64,000 bases of DNA from Zeimonas sediminis (GTDB lineage: Bacteria > Pseudomonadota > Gammaproteobacteria > Burkholderiales > Burkholderiaceae_E). The notes under the pieces were generated by a model that searched no databases, had not been told where the DNA came from, and saw only the letters and a list, made by a program, of their open reading frames with translations. A program made the position numbers and the translations under genes. How positions within the stretch are numbered: position 1 is the stretch's first letter; every line of letters begins with the position of its first letter. This document shows positions 674-62,492 of the stretch, in pieces. Where the stretch lies: assembly GCF_023721795.1 (NCBI RefSeq), contig NZ_JAMQYE010000001.1, positions 1 through 64,000 of the forward strand, in the 5' to 3' direction.

Positions 674-748
674 GGCCTGTTCACTGAATTGCGGGGGCCG
701 GGAGCCGACCCCCGAACCGATGTCTCCTCCTCCACCTCTCCGGTGGAT

Positions 749-1684
749 TCAGCCCGAACCTTCCCGGTTCGGGCTTTTTTTATGGCGCGCTGCCGCGCCG
801 GAGGTGACCAGCCAGATGCCCGGCAGCAGCAGGGCGGTGCCGGCCCAGTGGTACCAGTACGGCTGCTCGCCCAGCAGGAGCCACGTGGCCGCCGTCGCGT
901 AGGGCGGGCCGAGATAGAGGACGACGCCGGCCCGAGCGGGGCCGAGCTGCTTCTGGATGAAGGAGTAGGCTTGGTAGGCGCCGAAGCCCGGAAGCAGGCC
1001 GGCCGCGACGACGAGCACCAGCGTCTTCGTGTCGAGCTTCGGCGGTCCGAGGACGATCGCTTCGGCGATCGTGAAAGGTGTGAGCACGACGAGGCCCGCG
1101 ATGACGATCGCCGTCAGGCGCGCGAACGGGTCGAGCACGGTCGGCCTGGCCTGCAGCATCAGCGAGTAGACGGTCCATGCGCTGGCCGCAGCGACGATCC
1201 ACAGGTCGCCGGGCGTGAAACGCAGCGAGAGCAGGGCGCCCGGCGAGCCCTTGAGGATGATCAGCAGCACACCGGCCACGGCGATCGCGAGTCCCAGCGT
1301 CTGGCGCGGCGAGAGCCTGTCGCCGAGCCACAGGACCGACGCGACGGCGATCAGGACCGGCGAAATCGCGTAGATCAGGCCGATGTTCATGCCGGTGGTG
1401 GTCTTCGCGCCGATGTAGACGAAGGCGCCGCAGATCCACATGCCGAGCGCGCCGAACACGAGCAGGTCGCGCCACTCGCGGCGCCAGGCAGGCCAGTTCG
1501 CCCGCAGGGCCGGCCACGCGATCGGGAGCATCGCGAGCAGGGCCACCAGCCAGCGGAAGAAGGCGAGCGCGTGCGGCTCGATGACGCCCACCGCAGACCT
1601 GGCGATCACGTAGTTGGCCGCCCACAGCGACGGGGCGACGAAGACCAGGACGTAGGCGATTCGGAGGCGGGTTTCGGGGCGCAT
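749..1684 (-). CDS. DMT-superfamily (EamA) exporter
   Basis: Integral inner-membrane transporter of the drug/metabolite family, with about ten hydrophobic segments arranged as two EamA repeats over roughly 311 residues, the usual length. The first segment begins right after the start (LRIAYVLVFVAPSLWAANYV) and a second half opens with TPGDLWIVAAASAWTVYSL. The substrate cannot be predicted; relatives export amino acids or metabolites. The start is uncertain. ATG at 1684 is used here; TTG at 1753 would add 23 residues with no hydrophobic character. The last ten residues (KKSPNREGSG) are encoded by the terminator of the opposite gene, so the tail is probably not functionally constrained. Monocistronic. 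Confidence 0.85.
   Translation of the reverse strand: MRPETRLRIAYVLVFVAPSLWAANYVIARSAVGVIEPHALAFFRWLVALLAMLPIAWPALRANWPAWRREWRDLLVFGALGMWICGAFVYIGAKTTTGMNIGLIYAISPVLIAVASVLWLGDRLSPRQTLGLAIAVAGVLLIILKGSPGALLSLRFTPGDLWIVAAASAWTVYSLMLQARPTVLDPFARLTAIVIAGLVVLTPFTIAEAIVLGPPKLDTKTLVLVVAAGLLPGFGAYQAYSFIQKQLGPARAGVVLYLGPPYATAATWLLLGEQPYWYHWAGTALLLPGIWLVTSGAAARHKKSPNREGSG
751..781 (+). terminator. Intrinsic terminator embedded in the end of the opposing gene
   Basis: A 10-bp stem AGCCCGAACC (751-760) / GGTTCGGGCT (766-775) with loop TTCCC is followed by a run of seven T (775-781). A smaller hairpin TCCACC/GGTGGA (731-747) precedes it. It terminates the 359-673 gene. The same bases encode the last codons of the opposing DMT transporter gene. 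Confidence 0.9.
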
Positions 1685-9574: not shown

Positions 9575-9650
9575 TGGCTCCCCGACCAGGGCTCGAACCT
9601 GGGACCTGCGGATTAACAGTCCGTCGCTCTACCGACTGAGCTATCGGGGA
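9575..9650 (-). tRNA. tRNA-Asn (GTT)
   Basis: The minus strand folds as a 76-nt cloverleaf with encoded CCA. The acceptor stem is TCCCCGA/TCGGGGA, the D arm contains AGCTCAGTCGGTAGAGC, the anticodon GTT is at 9617-9615, and the T arm contains GGTTCGAGCC. Transcription ends at the terminator 9537-9565. Confidence 0.97.
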
Positions 9651-48469: not shown

Positions 48470-48871
48470 ATGACCCAGGTCCCGGACACGCACTCGAAGG
48501 TCGTCGGCTACGCGCTGTGGATCTTCGGATTCACCGGCTCGCACCGCTTCTACTACGGCAAGCCGGTGACCGGGACGATCTGGTTCTTCACGCTGGGCCT
48601 GCTCGGAATCGGCTGGCTGATCGACCTGTTCCTGATCCCCTCGATGGACCGGCAGGCCGACTTCCGTTTCCACGACGGGCCGATCAACTATTCGGTGGCG
48701 TGGATCCTGCTCACCTTCCTGGGCCTGCTCGGCGTGCACCGGATGTACATGGGGAAGTGGCTGACCGGCATTCTCTACCTGCTCACGCTGGGCCTGTTCG
48801 GCCTGGGCTGGCTGTACGACTACTGGACGCTGAACGAGCAGATCACGGTGCGCAATCGCGAGCGCGGCTAG
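48470..48871 (+). CDS. TM2-domain membrane protein
   Basis: This 133-residue protein has two TM2 domains, each a pair of membrane helices joined by a short polar turn. The first spans about residues 10-55 (YALWIFGFTGSHRFYYGK) and the second about 75-125 (LLTFLGLLGVHRMYMGKWL). The basic/aromatic HRFYYGK and HRMYMGK motifs are the TM2 hallmarks. The function is unknown. GGGGAGA lies upstream of ATG 48470. Possibly co-transcribed with the amidase. Confidence 0.9.
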   Translation: MTQVPDTHSKVVGYALWIFGFTGSHRFYYGKPVTGTIWFFTLGLLGIGWLIDLFLIPSMDRQADFRFHDGPINYSVAWILLTFLGLLGVHRMYMGKWLTGILYLLTLGLFGLGWLYDYWTLNEQITVRNRERG

Positions 48872-48884
48872 GGCGAGCGGGGCG

Positions 48885-48974
48885 GCGCCTCGCCTTGCGG
48901 CGTGCGCCCGGGCCTGCGCCTCGCCTTGCGGCGTGCGCCCGGACCTGCGCCTCGCCTTGCAGCGTGCGCCCTGG
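48885..48974. repeat. Three tandem copies of a 31-bp unit
   Basis: Copies lie at 48885-48915, 48916-48946 and 48947-48974 (last one incomplete, with one or two changes). The unit begins GCGCCTCGCCTTGCGGCGTG. It fills most of the gap between the ends of the TM2 and GDT1 genes. No spacers are present, so it is not a CRISPR array. Confidence 0.9.
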
Positions 48975-48982
48975 AGGTCGTG

Positions 48983-49558
48983 CTAGAAGCCCAGTCGCTC
49001 GCCCGCGCCCAGCAGCGTCGCGATACCCAGCACCGTGAAGATCGCCGCCGCGATGCCGTGGACCAGCTTCACGTGCAGACGGTGGGCGATGCGGTCGCCG
49101 AGCACGACGGCCGGCACGTTGGCGATCATCATGCCGAGCGTGGTGCCGGCCACGACGGCGACGAAGGCGTGGTACTGGGCGGCCAGCGCCACGGTCGCGA
49201 TCTGCGTCTTGTCGCCCATCTCGGCCAGGAAGAAGGCGACCAGCGTGGTGCCGAACACGCCCATGTGAGCGAGCTTCGCGTCCTTCTCGTCGAACTTGTC
49301 GGGCACGAGGATCCAGGCGGCCATCGCCAGAAAGGACAGGCCGAGCACCCAGCGCAGCGTCTCCGGGCTCATCAGCGAGGTGATCCAGGTGCCGATCGCG
49401 CCGGCGAACGCGTGGTTGGCGATCGTGGCCACCAGGATGCCCAGTACGATCGGCCAGGGCTTGCGGAACTTGGCGGCGAGGATGAAGGACAGCAGCTGCG
49501 TCTTGTCGCCGATTTCCGCGAGCGCGACGATACCCGTCGAAACGAGAAAGGCTTCCAA
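48983..49558 (-). CDS. GDT1/TMEM165 (UPF0016) family cation exporter
   Basis: Inner-membrane protein of 191 residues made of two three-helix repeats, each with the family motif: ALAEIGDKTQLLSF near residue 13 and FFLAEMGDKTQIATV near 110. Bacterial members export manganese; eukaryotic ones exchange Ca or Mn for protons. The start is TTG at 49558, with AGGGA seven bases upstream. The manganese riboswitch often found before such genes was not detected. The gene lies downstream of the large inverted-repeat region. Confidence 0.9.
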   Translation of the reverse strand: MEAFLVSTGIVALAEIGDKTQLLSFILAAKFRKPWPIVLGILVATIANHAFAGAIGTWITSLMSPETLRWVLGLSFLAMAAWILVPDKFDEKDAKLAHMGVFGTTLVAFFLAEMGDKTQIATVALAAQYHAFVAVVAGTTLGMMIANVPAVVLGDRIAHRLHVKLVHGIAAAIFTVLGIATLLGAGERLGF

Positions 49559-49632
49559 TCGAGCGATCCCTGTTTGGGTGGCTCTCCGAAGAAGCCGCGC
49601 ATTCTACCGGAGCCGCCAGTGGGCGCGCGCCC

Positions 49633-49838
49633 GGGCCGGTCGGGGACGAGCCCGCGCTCGGGCGCCGGTGCTGCGCCCCGCTTCGCGGGGTTCGCTCGCC
49701 TTCGTCGTCCGCGGCGGCTCGGGCGCAACTCGCGGTCCCTGCGGGACCGCTCAGACAGCGCCCTCGCTGATCGCCGCTCCCTTCCGAAGCGCTCGCCTTG
49801 CACAGGCGCCCGAGCGCGGGCTCGTCCCCGACCGGCCC
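49633..49838. repeat. Structured element A (34-bp perfect inverted repeat around a 138-bp core)
   Basis: The outer arms 49633-49666 and 49805-49838 are perfect reverse complements (start GGGCCGGTCGGGGACGAG). The core 49667-49804 contains further hairpins: CCCCGC/GCGGGG (around 49676-49690), GCGGTCCC/GGGACCGC (49732-49750) and CAGCG/CGCTG (49756-49769). The core is nearly identical to the reverse complement of the core of element B. Confidence 0.92.
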
Positions 49839-49903
49839 TGGATGTCGTGCTCTTCGTCGGGCGTGACGAAGCACGTCCCGACGGCATCGCCAGCCGCGGT
49901 GTC

Positions 49904-49977
49904 GCCCTGGCAACCAAGGCCGCGACGCTACAGCGTTCGCGGCCCGCTGACCGACCGAACGTCGGAACCTCCAGGGC
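49904..49977. repeat. Palindrome between the two large elements
   Basis: GCCCTGG (49904-49910) and CCAGGGC (49971-49977) enclose a strong inner hairpin GGCCGCGACGCT / AGCGTTCGCGGCC (49918-49944, one bulged base). It lies in the linker between elements A and B and has no sequence in common with them. Confidence 0.8.
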
Positions 49978-50179
49978 AGGGAGCAGGGGCCGGCTTTTCC
50001 GGACACTGTGCCAGCCGAGCGCTTCGGAAGGGAGCGGCGATCAGCGAGGGCGCTGTCTGAGCGATTCCGACGGAATCGCGAGTTGCGCCCGAGCCGCCGC
50101 GGACGACGAAGGCGAGGGCAGCCCCGCGAAGCGGGGCCGCAGCACCGTGTCCGGAAAAGCCGGCCCCTGCTCGCTGCCC
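49974..50179. repeat. Structured element B (33-bp inverted repeat around an inverted copy of the same core)
   Basis: The arms 49974-50006 and 50147-50179 are reverse complements with one mismatch (inner part GGCCGGCTTTTCCGGACAC). They are unrelated in sequence to the arms of element A. The 140-bp core 50007-50146 matches core A in the opposite direction at nearly every position. The central hairpin is GCGATTCC/GGAATCGC (50061-50079), which differs from the core A hairpin by two compensated base pairs. Confidence 0.92.
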
Positions 50180-50200
50180 GGGCGCAGGCCCCCCGAGCGG

Positions 50201-51883
50201 TCAGCCCGTCGCGAACGCGAAGTCTCGGCCCGGCGCCGCCGCGAACAGCGCCTTCGTGTACTCGTGCTTCGGATTCCCGAACACCTCGCCCGCCGGCCCG
50301 TACTCCACCACCTGCCCCTTCGACATCACCATCACGTGGTCGCAGACCTGCGCGGCCACCCGAAGGTCGTGGGTGATGAACAGCATCGCCAGGTGCAGCC
50401 GGTCGCGGATCTCGTCGAGCAGCCGCATCACCTGCGCCTGCACCGACACGTCGAGTGCCGACACCGCCTCGTCGGCGATCAGCAGCTCGGGCTCCATCGC
50501 CAGCGCTCGGGCGATGCAGATCCGCTGCCGCTGGCCGCCGGAGAACTGGTGTGGGTAGCGGTCGAGCGCGGCGGGGTCCAGCCTGACCAGCTCCATCAGC
50601 TCGCGGGCGCGGGCCATCGCCTGGCTGCGCGGCGTGCCGTAGTTCAGCGGCCCCTCGATGATCGACTCGCCGACGGTGCGGCGCGGGTTCAGCGACCGGT
50701 ACGGGTCCTGGAACACGACCTGGATGCGCCGGCGCAAGGGCCGCAGGTCGCGGTGCGACATCCGCGCGATGTTCTCGCCGCTGATCTCGACGCTGCCGGA
50801 GGTGGGGTCGATCAGCCGCGCGATGCAGCGCGCCACCGTGGACTTGCCCGAGCCCGATTCGCCTACGATGCCGAGCGTCTGCCCGCGCCTGATCTGCAGC
50901 GACACGTCGGTGGCCGCGCGCACCTCGTGCCTGGCGCGCAGGAAGCCGCCGCTCGAGTAGACCTTCGCGAGCTTGTCGGTCTTCAGCACGACGGGTGCGG
51001 ACTCGTCGGCGCCGCGGTGCTTCGGGTGGATGCCGGGCACCGAGCCGATCAGCATCTTCGTGTACGGATGCTGCGGGTCGGTCAGCACCGCCTGCTTGGT
51101 GCCGGTCTCGACCATGTCGCCCAGGCGCAGCACCGCGACCCGGTTCGCGATCTCGGCGACCACGCCGAAGTCGTGGGTGATGAACAGCACCCCGGTGCCG
51201 TGCTTGTGCTGCAGGTCGGCGATCAGCCGCAGGATCTGCGCCTGGGTGGTCACGTCGAGCGCGGTGGTCGGCTCGTCGGCGATCAGCAGCACCGGCTCGA
51301 GGATCAGCGCCATCGCGATCATGATCCGCTGGCGCTGGCCGCCCGAAAGCTGGTGCGGGTAGGAGTCGTACATCCGGTCGGGGTCGGGCAGGCCGACCTC
51401 CTCGATCACCTGGCGCACCCGCTGTCGCCGCTCGGCGGCGCCCAGCTTCGTGTGCATCGCCAGCACCTCGTCGATCTGCGCGCCGCAGCGCATGACCGGG
51501 TTCAGCGCGGTCATCGGCTCCTGGAAGATCATGGACATGCGCACGCAACGCAGCTCGCGCAGCCGCGCCTCGCTGGCCCGCGCGATGTTCTCGCCTTCGA
51601 GCAGGATCTCGCCGCCGAGCACCGGCAGCTGCTTGGGCAGCAGCCCCATGACCGCCTGCGCGATCACCGACTTGCCCGAGCCGGACTCGCCGACCAGGCA
51701 GACGATCTCGCCGCGGTTCACCGTGAGACTCACGTCGGCCACCGCCCGCTTGCGGTCGCCACCGCGGGGCAGCGCGATCGACAGGTCGCGGATCTCGAGG
51801 ACGGGCCCGTTCCCCGGTGCGCCGGGCGCCTGGCCGGCAGCGGGCGCGTCGCGGGTTTCCTTGTTCATTTCGGAAGCGTTCAT
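50201..51883 (-). CDS. Dipeptide/oligopeptide ABC transporter, fused ATPases (DppD-DppF type)
   Basis: Two complete ABC modules in one 560-residue protein. Module 1 (about residues 25-275) has Walker [10 protein letters not shown], signature LSGGQRQR and Walker [13 protein letters not shown]. Module 2 (about 300-555) has [17 protein letters not shown] and [12 protein letters not shown]. Each ends in the oligopeptide-transporter C-terminal motif region ([11 protein letters not shown] and [11 protein letters not shown]). It energises import of peptides or similar solutes. It follows the DppC-like permease by 4 bp and is last in the operon. Confidence 0.94.
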
Positions 51884-62401: not shown

Positions 62402-62492
62402 GGAGGGATGGATGAGTGGTTTAAGTCGCACGCCTGGAAAGCGTGTAAGGGTTAACAGCCCTTCGGGGGTTCGAATCCCCCTCCCTCCGCCA
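62402..62492 (+). tRNA. tRNA-Ser (GGA)
   Basis: A 91-nt cloverleaf with encoded CCA and a long variable arm. The acceptor stem is GGAGGGA/TCCCTCC, the anticodon stem CACGC/GCGTG, the anticodon GGA is at 62436-62438, and the T arm contains GGTTCGAATCC. A class II tRNA with G discriminator, as expected for serine. Confidence 0.97.

Follow-up and report, generated by a model that had tools for sequence, protein, structure and literature searches.

Two folded elements lie in opposite orientations between the genes for a GDT1-family antiporter and an oligopeptide ABC transporter ATPase in the window, the 64,000-nucleotide stretch of Zeimonas sediminis DNA analysed here (contig NZ_JAMQYE010000001.1, positions 1 to 64,000; Table 1). 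Element A spans 49630-49841 and element B 49971-50182, the latter ending 18 nt from the stop of the ATPase gene. Orientation is given relative to R1, a covariance model built from 15 copies in the same genome (G000), with 'R1 orientation' denoting the strand of element A. A first-pass annotation had described nearly the same ~140-nt core in A and B in opposite orientation, and an inverted-repeat search bears this out, the cores (49687-49805 and 50006-50124) being 91% complementary over 119 nt. The stems it reported (34 bp, perfect; 33 bp, one mismatch) agree with those obtained by outward extension, namely, for A, 36 pairs with a single C.T mismatch close to the base and, for B, 35 pairs with one C.C and one C.T; the inverted-repeat search gave 42 nt (95%) and 41 nt (93%), respectively. 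Folding energies were far below those of dinucleotide shuffles (z = -10.9 for A and -10.0 for B), none of 200 shuffles folding as well. The C.T mismatch near the outer stem end (for example, window 49632/49839) recurs in many short-stem copies, and the recurrent outer motifs GCGCCCGG and CCTGGATGTCG adjoin it at the stem base.

Table 1 Features of the A/B region in the window and positions of type 3 copies in the source genome
Feature	Position	Strand	Basis
Flanking gene, GDT1-family divalent cation/proton antiporter (PF01169)	48983..49558	-	
Element A outer (R1-5') arm of variable stem, 36 nt	49630..49665	+	Inverted-repeat search, stem extension
Element A conserved core, 140 nt, R1 orientation, type 1 tip	49666..49805	+	Repeat search, consensus, model matches
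Element A inner (R1-3') arm; pairs with 49630-49665, one C.T mismatch	49806..49841	+	Stem extension
Spacer separating A and B; CCTGGATGTCG-like recurrent outer motif crosses arm/spacer border	49842..49970	.	
Element B inner (R1-3') arm, 35 nt	49971..50005	-	Stem extension
Element B conserved core, 142 nt, orientation opposite to A	50006..50147	-	Repeat search, model matches, stem extension
Element B outer (R1-5') arm; Watson-Crick in 33/35 pairs	50148..50182	-	Stem extension
Flanking gene, oligopeptide ABC transporter ATPase (two ABC_tran domains, oligo_HPY)	50201..51883	-	
Type 3 copies (L169-L182), G000	C1:982775, 1104410/1104765, 1421326, 1465974, 1651247, 2793349/2793746; C2:292183/292544, others		

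Within 49559-50200, no sigma-70-like promoter was detected, which is weak evidence in a GC-rich genome, and no U-tract terminator-like site (a GC stem followed by a T run) was found where 0.3 were expected. No Rfam 15 family reached its gathering score in the A/B region; the best sub-threshold scores were 15.3 bits (against 70) for Bp2_287, in the spacer, and 15.2 bits (against 67.9) for Burkholderiales-2. Elsewhere in the window, positions 721-782 (+) match the Betaproteobacteria toxic small RNA (RF02278; 55.6 bits, threshold 50), and tRNA genes were detected for Asn (gtt; 9575-9650, -) and Ser (gga; 62402-62492, +).

Further copies of the elements, the search for which had been proposed, are present in the same genome and in its relatives. 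G000 (3.86 Mb, 3 contigs) contains 26 full and 4 partial R1 matches at E <= 0.01. At genus level (Zeimonas/Lautropia group), 13 of 18 genomes have R1 matches (E <= 0.001), and at family level 16 of 74 genomes, belonging to 3 of 16 genera (E <= 1e-5). Across the order, a second model, R2, matched 3 of 399 genomes (E <= 1e-4), all within the same family, in a shallow scan that scored seven candidates per genome and misses weak copies. Plasmid and phage records, from which records near the genome may be left out, gave no match. A Streptomyces contig and a soil metagenome-assembled contig (L125, L127) picked up by a pattern scan contain nothing that R1 finds at E <= 0.001 and were treated as chance.

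Cores are branched and ~126-151 nt long, whole units measure ~190-450 nt, and at least three core variants occur: type 1, as in A and B; type 2, with a different tip; and type 3, which was reached through partial matches and gave 14 matches in G000 (E <= 1e-6) with their own variable stems, several of them paired. In alignment A2, the P1 loop of type 2 appears on the reverse strand mainly as a GNA triloop (GAA, GCA) closed by C-G; such triloops are unusually stable in DNA. In the copies examined, stems are near-perfect and locus-specific, the exception being L016 and L017, which lie 2 kb apart and carry nearly one stem. L012 and L013 combine near-identical cores with unrelated stems. At L095 (G000 C2:424631-424926), a whole element, stem included, lies inside a second, perfect inverted repeat of 32 bp, forming a nested palindrome. 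At L153 (G056:C187), in another genus, lies a distant R1 pair whose stems are heavily eroded, with 6 and 9 mismatches, and whose core variant contains an A run; it is possibly a dying or early form of the element. Two wide pairs were considered as possible autonomous copies, in which paired ends would flank a gene belonging to the element, and this reading was rejected on the strength of L115 of G001, which spans the gdt1 gene; the second wide pair (L088) has a 1.4-kb interval. No published description of this hairpin family was found in the open-access literature, outside which most subscription journals fall, and the A/B family apparently represents undescribed, old, folded elements at gene ends.

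Copies are concentrated between convergent genes. With gene positions taken from a purpose-written codon-usage gene caller, 96 of 101 elements were placed: convergent genes flank 61, tandem genes 18 and 14 in the two orientations, and divergent genes 3. Of the 78 occupied intergenic regions, each counted once, 48 lie between convergent, 27 between tandem and 3 between divergent genes, against a background of convergent neighbours of 10/55 in the window and 17/175 in the loci. All 19 pairs closer than 800 bp are ordered R1+ then R1-, as are A and B.

Stems were extended outward for 101 of the 118 R1-model matches, the other 17 being duplicates from the same G002 contigs, incomplete copies or partial type 3 matches. 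In the trimmed stems, 4,870 of 5,005 pairs are Watson-Crick (97.3%), a figure that covers the paired part only, as trimming stops a stem where matching fails. The first-pass observation of kept pairing with varying stem sequence extends from two elements to a family with private stems at each locus. The commonest mismatch after trimming is CT (33/135). In R1 orientation, A.C mismatches outnumber G.T by 48 to 18 (P = 3e-4; 30 elements versus 9), which hints at strand-specific folding or mutation, with the reverse strand hinted at as the folding strand. A more specific reading of this bias, as a reverse-strand RNA with divergent transcription from the spacer, has been reduced to a hint, as no promoter-like site was found in 49559-50200. 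Covariation was also found in the consensus folds: two-sided changes occur at 28 of 53 pairs in the type 1 consensus fold (15 copies from G000; RNAalifold rather than R-scape) and at 28 of 42 pairs in the type 2 alignment. A structured-RNA reading of the elements is possible.

Many sites are common to several species, down to ~75% flank identity (flanks compared with elements masked), so the family is old and largely vertical. From flank matches, 38 positional ortholog pairs were listed by hand, of which 21 have alignable stems; their 697 columns comprise 584 unchanged, 82 changed in both arms, 30 changed in one arm and 1 other, and about 4.5 two-sided changes would be expected if the arms were independent. 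The count of 82 to 30 is weaker than it appears, because non-orthologous stems align at a median identity of 0.66 (95% point, 0.78); any misaligned column of two perfect stems scores as mirrored, so pairs that align only weakly count for little. Among the six best pairs (L077-/L115-, L083-/L098-, L091/L108, L116-/L148, L065+/L138+ and L055/L139-), which were chosen after the counts were known and include two (L116-/L148 and L065+/L138+) that had failed a filter on gap number, two-sided changes affect 33 columns and one-sided changes 4, with 1 other. The three short-stem pairs among them exceed 544/552, 552/552 and 574/575 non-orthologous pairs in identity, and the three long-stem pairs have the top three local scores among all long-stem cross-locus comparisons. 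L055/L139- is unremarkable by global identity (14/56 lower), owing to its 43-bp indel, and ranks second by local score, after L065+/L138+. Less clear among long stems are L059/L067 and L149/L140, for which 9/249 and 6/249 null scores, respectively, are as high; L059/L067 (32 two-sided and 2 one-sided changes) was not counted among the supporting pairs.

Long indels follow the same pattern. At the beta locus, the stem is 66 bp in G006 and 110 bp in G016; the two have their ends in common and differ by a 43-bp block plus smaller indels. Both are free of mismatches and bulges, so the 43-bp block is present or absent in both arms. Comparison of these sites indicates that the two arms evolve as one unit, taking substitutions and long indels together.

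Parts of the element differ in how they diverge. For 16 positional orthologs of G000 and G001, median identity is 0.89 in the outer core and 0.75 in the stem, and third codon positions of two window genes diverge by 0.19 between these genomes. The seven type 2 tips in G000 are 0.989 alike, whereas G000 and G001 tips at four shared loci are only 0.59-0.81 alike, with the outer core there at 0.885-0.965. Within-genome tip identity is 0.951 in G006 (6 comparisons), 0.844 in G001 and 0.783 in G016. Tips have probably been exchanged between loci in some genomes, and stems have probably been rewritten each within its locus, the outer core being more constrained. Core orientation is opposite in 7 of the 38 ortholog pairs, and the stem is clearly homologous only in L096/L051, where it tops its 230 null pairs (L092/L109 stands at the 86th percentile). 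The L096/L051 core seems, on this comparison, to have been inverted in place; the other opposite-orientation pairs possibly reflect loss of alternate members of an ancestral +/- pair. At the second element of L083/L098, stem and locus are the same and the core is of type 1 in G000 and has a type 2 tip in G001; core exchange under a kept stem may explain this difference.

Where a copy is missing or partial between G000 and G001, traces persist in five cases. Element A of the window has lost its core in G001 and retains its stem sequence there, and further remnants between G000 and G001 occur at the second element of L088, the second element of L091/L108 (a short trace) and L086/L103. Beyond gdt1, at the first-element site of L115, G001 has an element of which G000 keeps only outer motifs and short repeats. 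These short tandem outer-motif repeats (GCGTGCGCCCGG) occupy L077 2871-2980 (window 48870-48979), where G001 and G002 carry a full element. A sixth case of absence (first element of L094, compared with L106) stands outside the remnant count, the flank differing in L106.

Some palindromes reach into genes. One element, at the delta locus, lies where the genes for a PhoH-like protein (PF02562) and a PLP-dependent enzyme (PF00291) converge. In G006, the palindrome covers the final 36 nt of both genes, stops included, and both proteins end in the same 11 residues (SRLADYATDAL); in G016, it covers 15 nt of both gene ends and both proteins end in TDAL. The PhoH-like C-terminus is alike in G003, G006 and G016 save for one Y/F difference, which makes the enzyme tail the likely recipient; the enzyme end was compared in G006 and G016, that of G003 not being located by the anchor used. 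The shared tail of the enzyme lies outside its Pfam match, which stops at residue 302 of 329. In five other elements (L147, L142, L144 and L141- of G016, and L068 of G009), a neighbouring open frame stops 8-22 nt within the stem.

Stem length differs between genomes with and without a detected Mre11-like gene. Such a gene was found by protein search (E <= 1e-10) in 4 of 18 genus genomes (G000, G001, G002 and G007) and in 12 of 33 overall, the 14 genus genomes without it being 65-98% complete. The 61 trimmed stems of these four genomes have a median of 34 bp and a maximum of 41 bp, and 36 trimmed stems from nine other genus genomes, in which the gene was not found, have a median of 90 bp and a maximum of 161 bp. 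The SbcD family model matches the same four genomes below its cut-off (E about 1e-14), as well as G008, a genome without an element match, and has no match in the seven long-stem genomes tested (G003, G006, G009, G010, G013, G014 and G016). The match in G000 is a 424-aa calcineurin-like phosphoesterase (PF00149) adjoining a 1,175-aa AAA_27 ATPase (PF13514), a predicted Mre11/Rad50-like pair, which we take to be of the YhaO/YhaN type. The survey across genomes followed the phosphoesterase gene; matches to the SbcC family model were too noisy to use. Some genomes in which the search did not find the gene also have short stems: 26 and 36 bp in G005, 25-42 bp in G010, 33 bp in G013, 14 and 19 bp in G003, and 20 and 44 bp in G016; at L058 of G003, an outer 93-bp arm is also seen. 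Outside the genus, G044 (gene found, 32-bp stem) fits the link; the gene was found neither in G043 (79% complete, with a 44-bp stem) nor in G056 (100% complete, stems eroded), and these two genomes are unhelpful. The link of stem length to the Mre11-like gene may amount to one clade-level contrast.

The first-pass annotation had allowed for a known family; none of the known families tested fits. REP/BIME elements are outlined as 20-40 bp palindromes with an unpaired GTAG or CGTC tag, intergenic, mostly downstream of genes and between convergent or tandem ones, with neighbours often oppositely oriented (passages in PMC3733652). The present elements resemble these in lying at convergent or tandem gene ends and in their consistent +/- pairing, but their units are of a different size class, each built of a large, branched core on a variable stem private to its locus, and no GTAG or CGTC tag was noticed in their aligned flanks. 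Template switching has been proposed to create and maintain hairpins (in part of PMC8794818), and between inverted-repeat arms it reportedly homogenises the arms and inverts spacers, the yeast events being short in the cases given (REG2 arms lengthened from 5 bp to 16 bp; spacer inversions, each amounting to 2-5 substitutions; parts of PMC8604942). Arm homogenisation and multi-base mirrored changes are common to that process and to the present family, in which spacer inversion may have occurred at one site; the family differs in being an old repeat family with a ~130-nt core and stems of up to 161 bp, some extending into genes. Among animals, abstracts describe maintained inverted repeats in Caenorhabditis whose structure is conserved beyond sequence (PMC1803023) and palindromes in Nematomorpha mitochondria with arms also in coding sequence (PMC6649704), and in those abstracts no shared core at many loci is described. 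In Escherichia coli, SbcCD cleaves replication hairpins (in part of PMC4245961), and inverted duplications arise at a 246-bp interrupted palindrome in cells lacking SbcCD and RecA (in part of PMC3315005). That work concerns single test palindromes, whereas here stem length tracks a related nuclease gene across a natural family. We rate the family as intergenic palindromic repeats, a known kind, with an unusual mode of evolution.

We consider it probable that the elements form a lineage-specific, mostly vertical hairpin family at gene ends whose arms co-evolve through arm-to-arm copying, and such copying, by replication template switching, fits better than stepwise compensation or new insertion. 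The element would fold into a hairpin on the template strand at replication, and the polymerase would copy one arm, or the nascent strand, to build the other. Template switching of this kind would repair, drift and lengthen the palindrome, and a hairpin-cleaving nuclease of the Mre11/Rad50 type would, where present, limit stem length. Pure arm copying does not predict the excess of A.C over G.T, and one-sided changes make up 30 of the 113 altered columns across the 21 pairs with alignable stems. As a guess from position alone, the core might be kept because the folded element would serve convergent transcription units as a barrier in both directions or as a protective end, although 30 of 78 sites are not convergent and no U-tract terminator was found at A and B. 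A bolder version, which we entertain tentatively, casts the core as a palindrome generator that would fold at the fork, have its flanks rewritten as mirror copies and grow until an Mre11/Rad50-type nuclease stops growth, and that may carry one gene end onto a convergent gene.

The first-pass annotation took the kept pairing as what selection on the stem-loop form would produce. Selection on a folded RNA (or single-stranded DNA), with pairs kept by stepwise compensatory mutation, would account for the conservation of the core across species, its invariant positions (several in predicted loops), the two-sided changes at predicted pairs and the strand bias of stem wobble. It is nonetheless unlikely, as single-pair steps do not easily yield a 43-bp block that both arms gain or lose together, nor a 36-nt coding end mirrored in the next gene, the six best pairs contain few one-sided changes, and stem identity between G000 and G001 (median 0.75) is not slowed relative to third positions (0.81). 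The mirrored multi-base indel and the overwritten C-terminus of a neighbour suggest arm copying instead, and if one arm is copied onto the other, pairing is kept without selection of each pair. A mobile palindromic (MITE-like) element that takes a new stem at each insertion would explain the many copies, the near-identical cores on unrelated stems at L012/L013 and the paired ends, but we judge it slightly less likely again. Positions are common to several species across the genus, the five absent or partial copies between G000 and G001 leave remnants (short at L091 and L077) instead of a clean empty site, target duplications did not come to notice in an unsystematic look, and a search limited to the RAYT/Y1 tyrosine transposase (PF01797) matched 0/5 genomes, its control being positive in 5/14 known genomes; recent mobility is not supported. 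Recombination between dispersed copies, rather than within one hairpin, is a very unlikely source of the matching arms. The near-uniform type 2 tips of G000, which differ from their G001 orthologs while the outer core follows orthology, favour it, but stems are private to their loci, and a search with the one 161-bp arm tested (G016) turned up no second close copy in that genome (next-best E = 0.004; 40/295 candidates scored), so that arm did not originate at another site. Long, perfect palindromes are known to cause trouble in sequencing, yet homologous, diverged stems recur at the same sites in separate assemblies, and element B itself, in the region for which an assembly inversion had been raised, recurs at the same locus in G001; the chance of an assembly or fold-back artefact is negligible.

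In general, long and nearly perfect inverted repeats are regarded as unstable in bacterial chromosomes; the richest hosts here keep one to two dozen or more palindromes per genome, at sites common to species. If arm-to-arm copying is the correct reading, the family would be a natural long-term record of hairpin-mediated replication errors, with many replicate loci for studying template switching and palindrome growth. It also carries a caution, in that covariation by itself is no proof of selection on RNA structure. The link of palindrome length to an Mre11/Rad50-like nuclease is a testable suggestion. The delta locus points to a route by which the end of one gene may overwrite that of another, and if the core is indeed a palindrome generator, unrelated proteins could gain an identical C-terminus.
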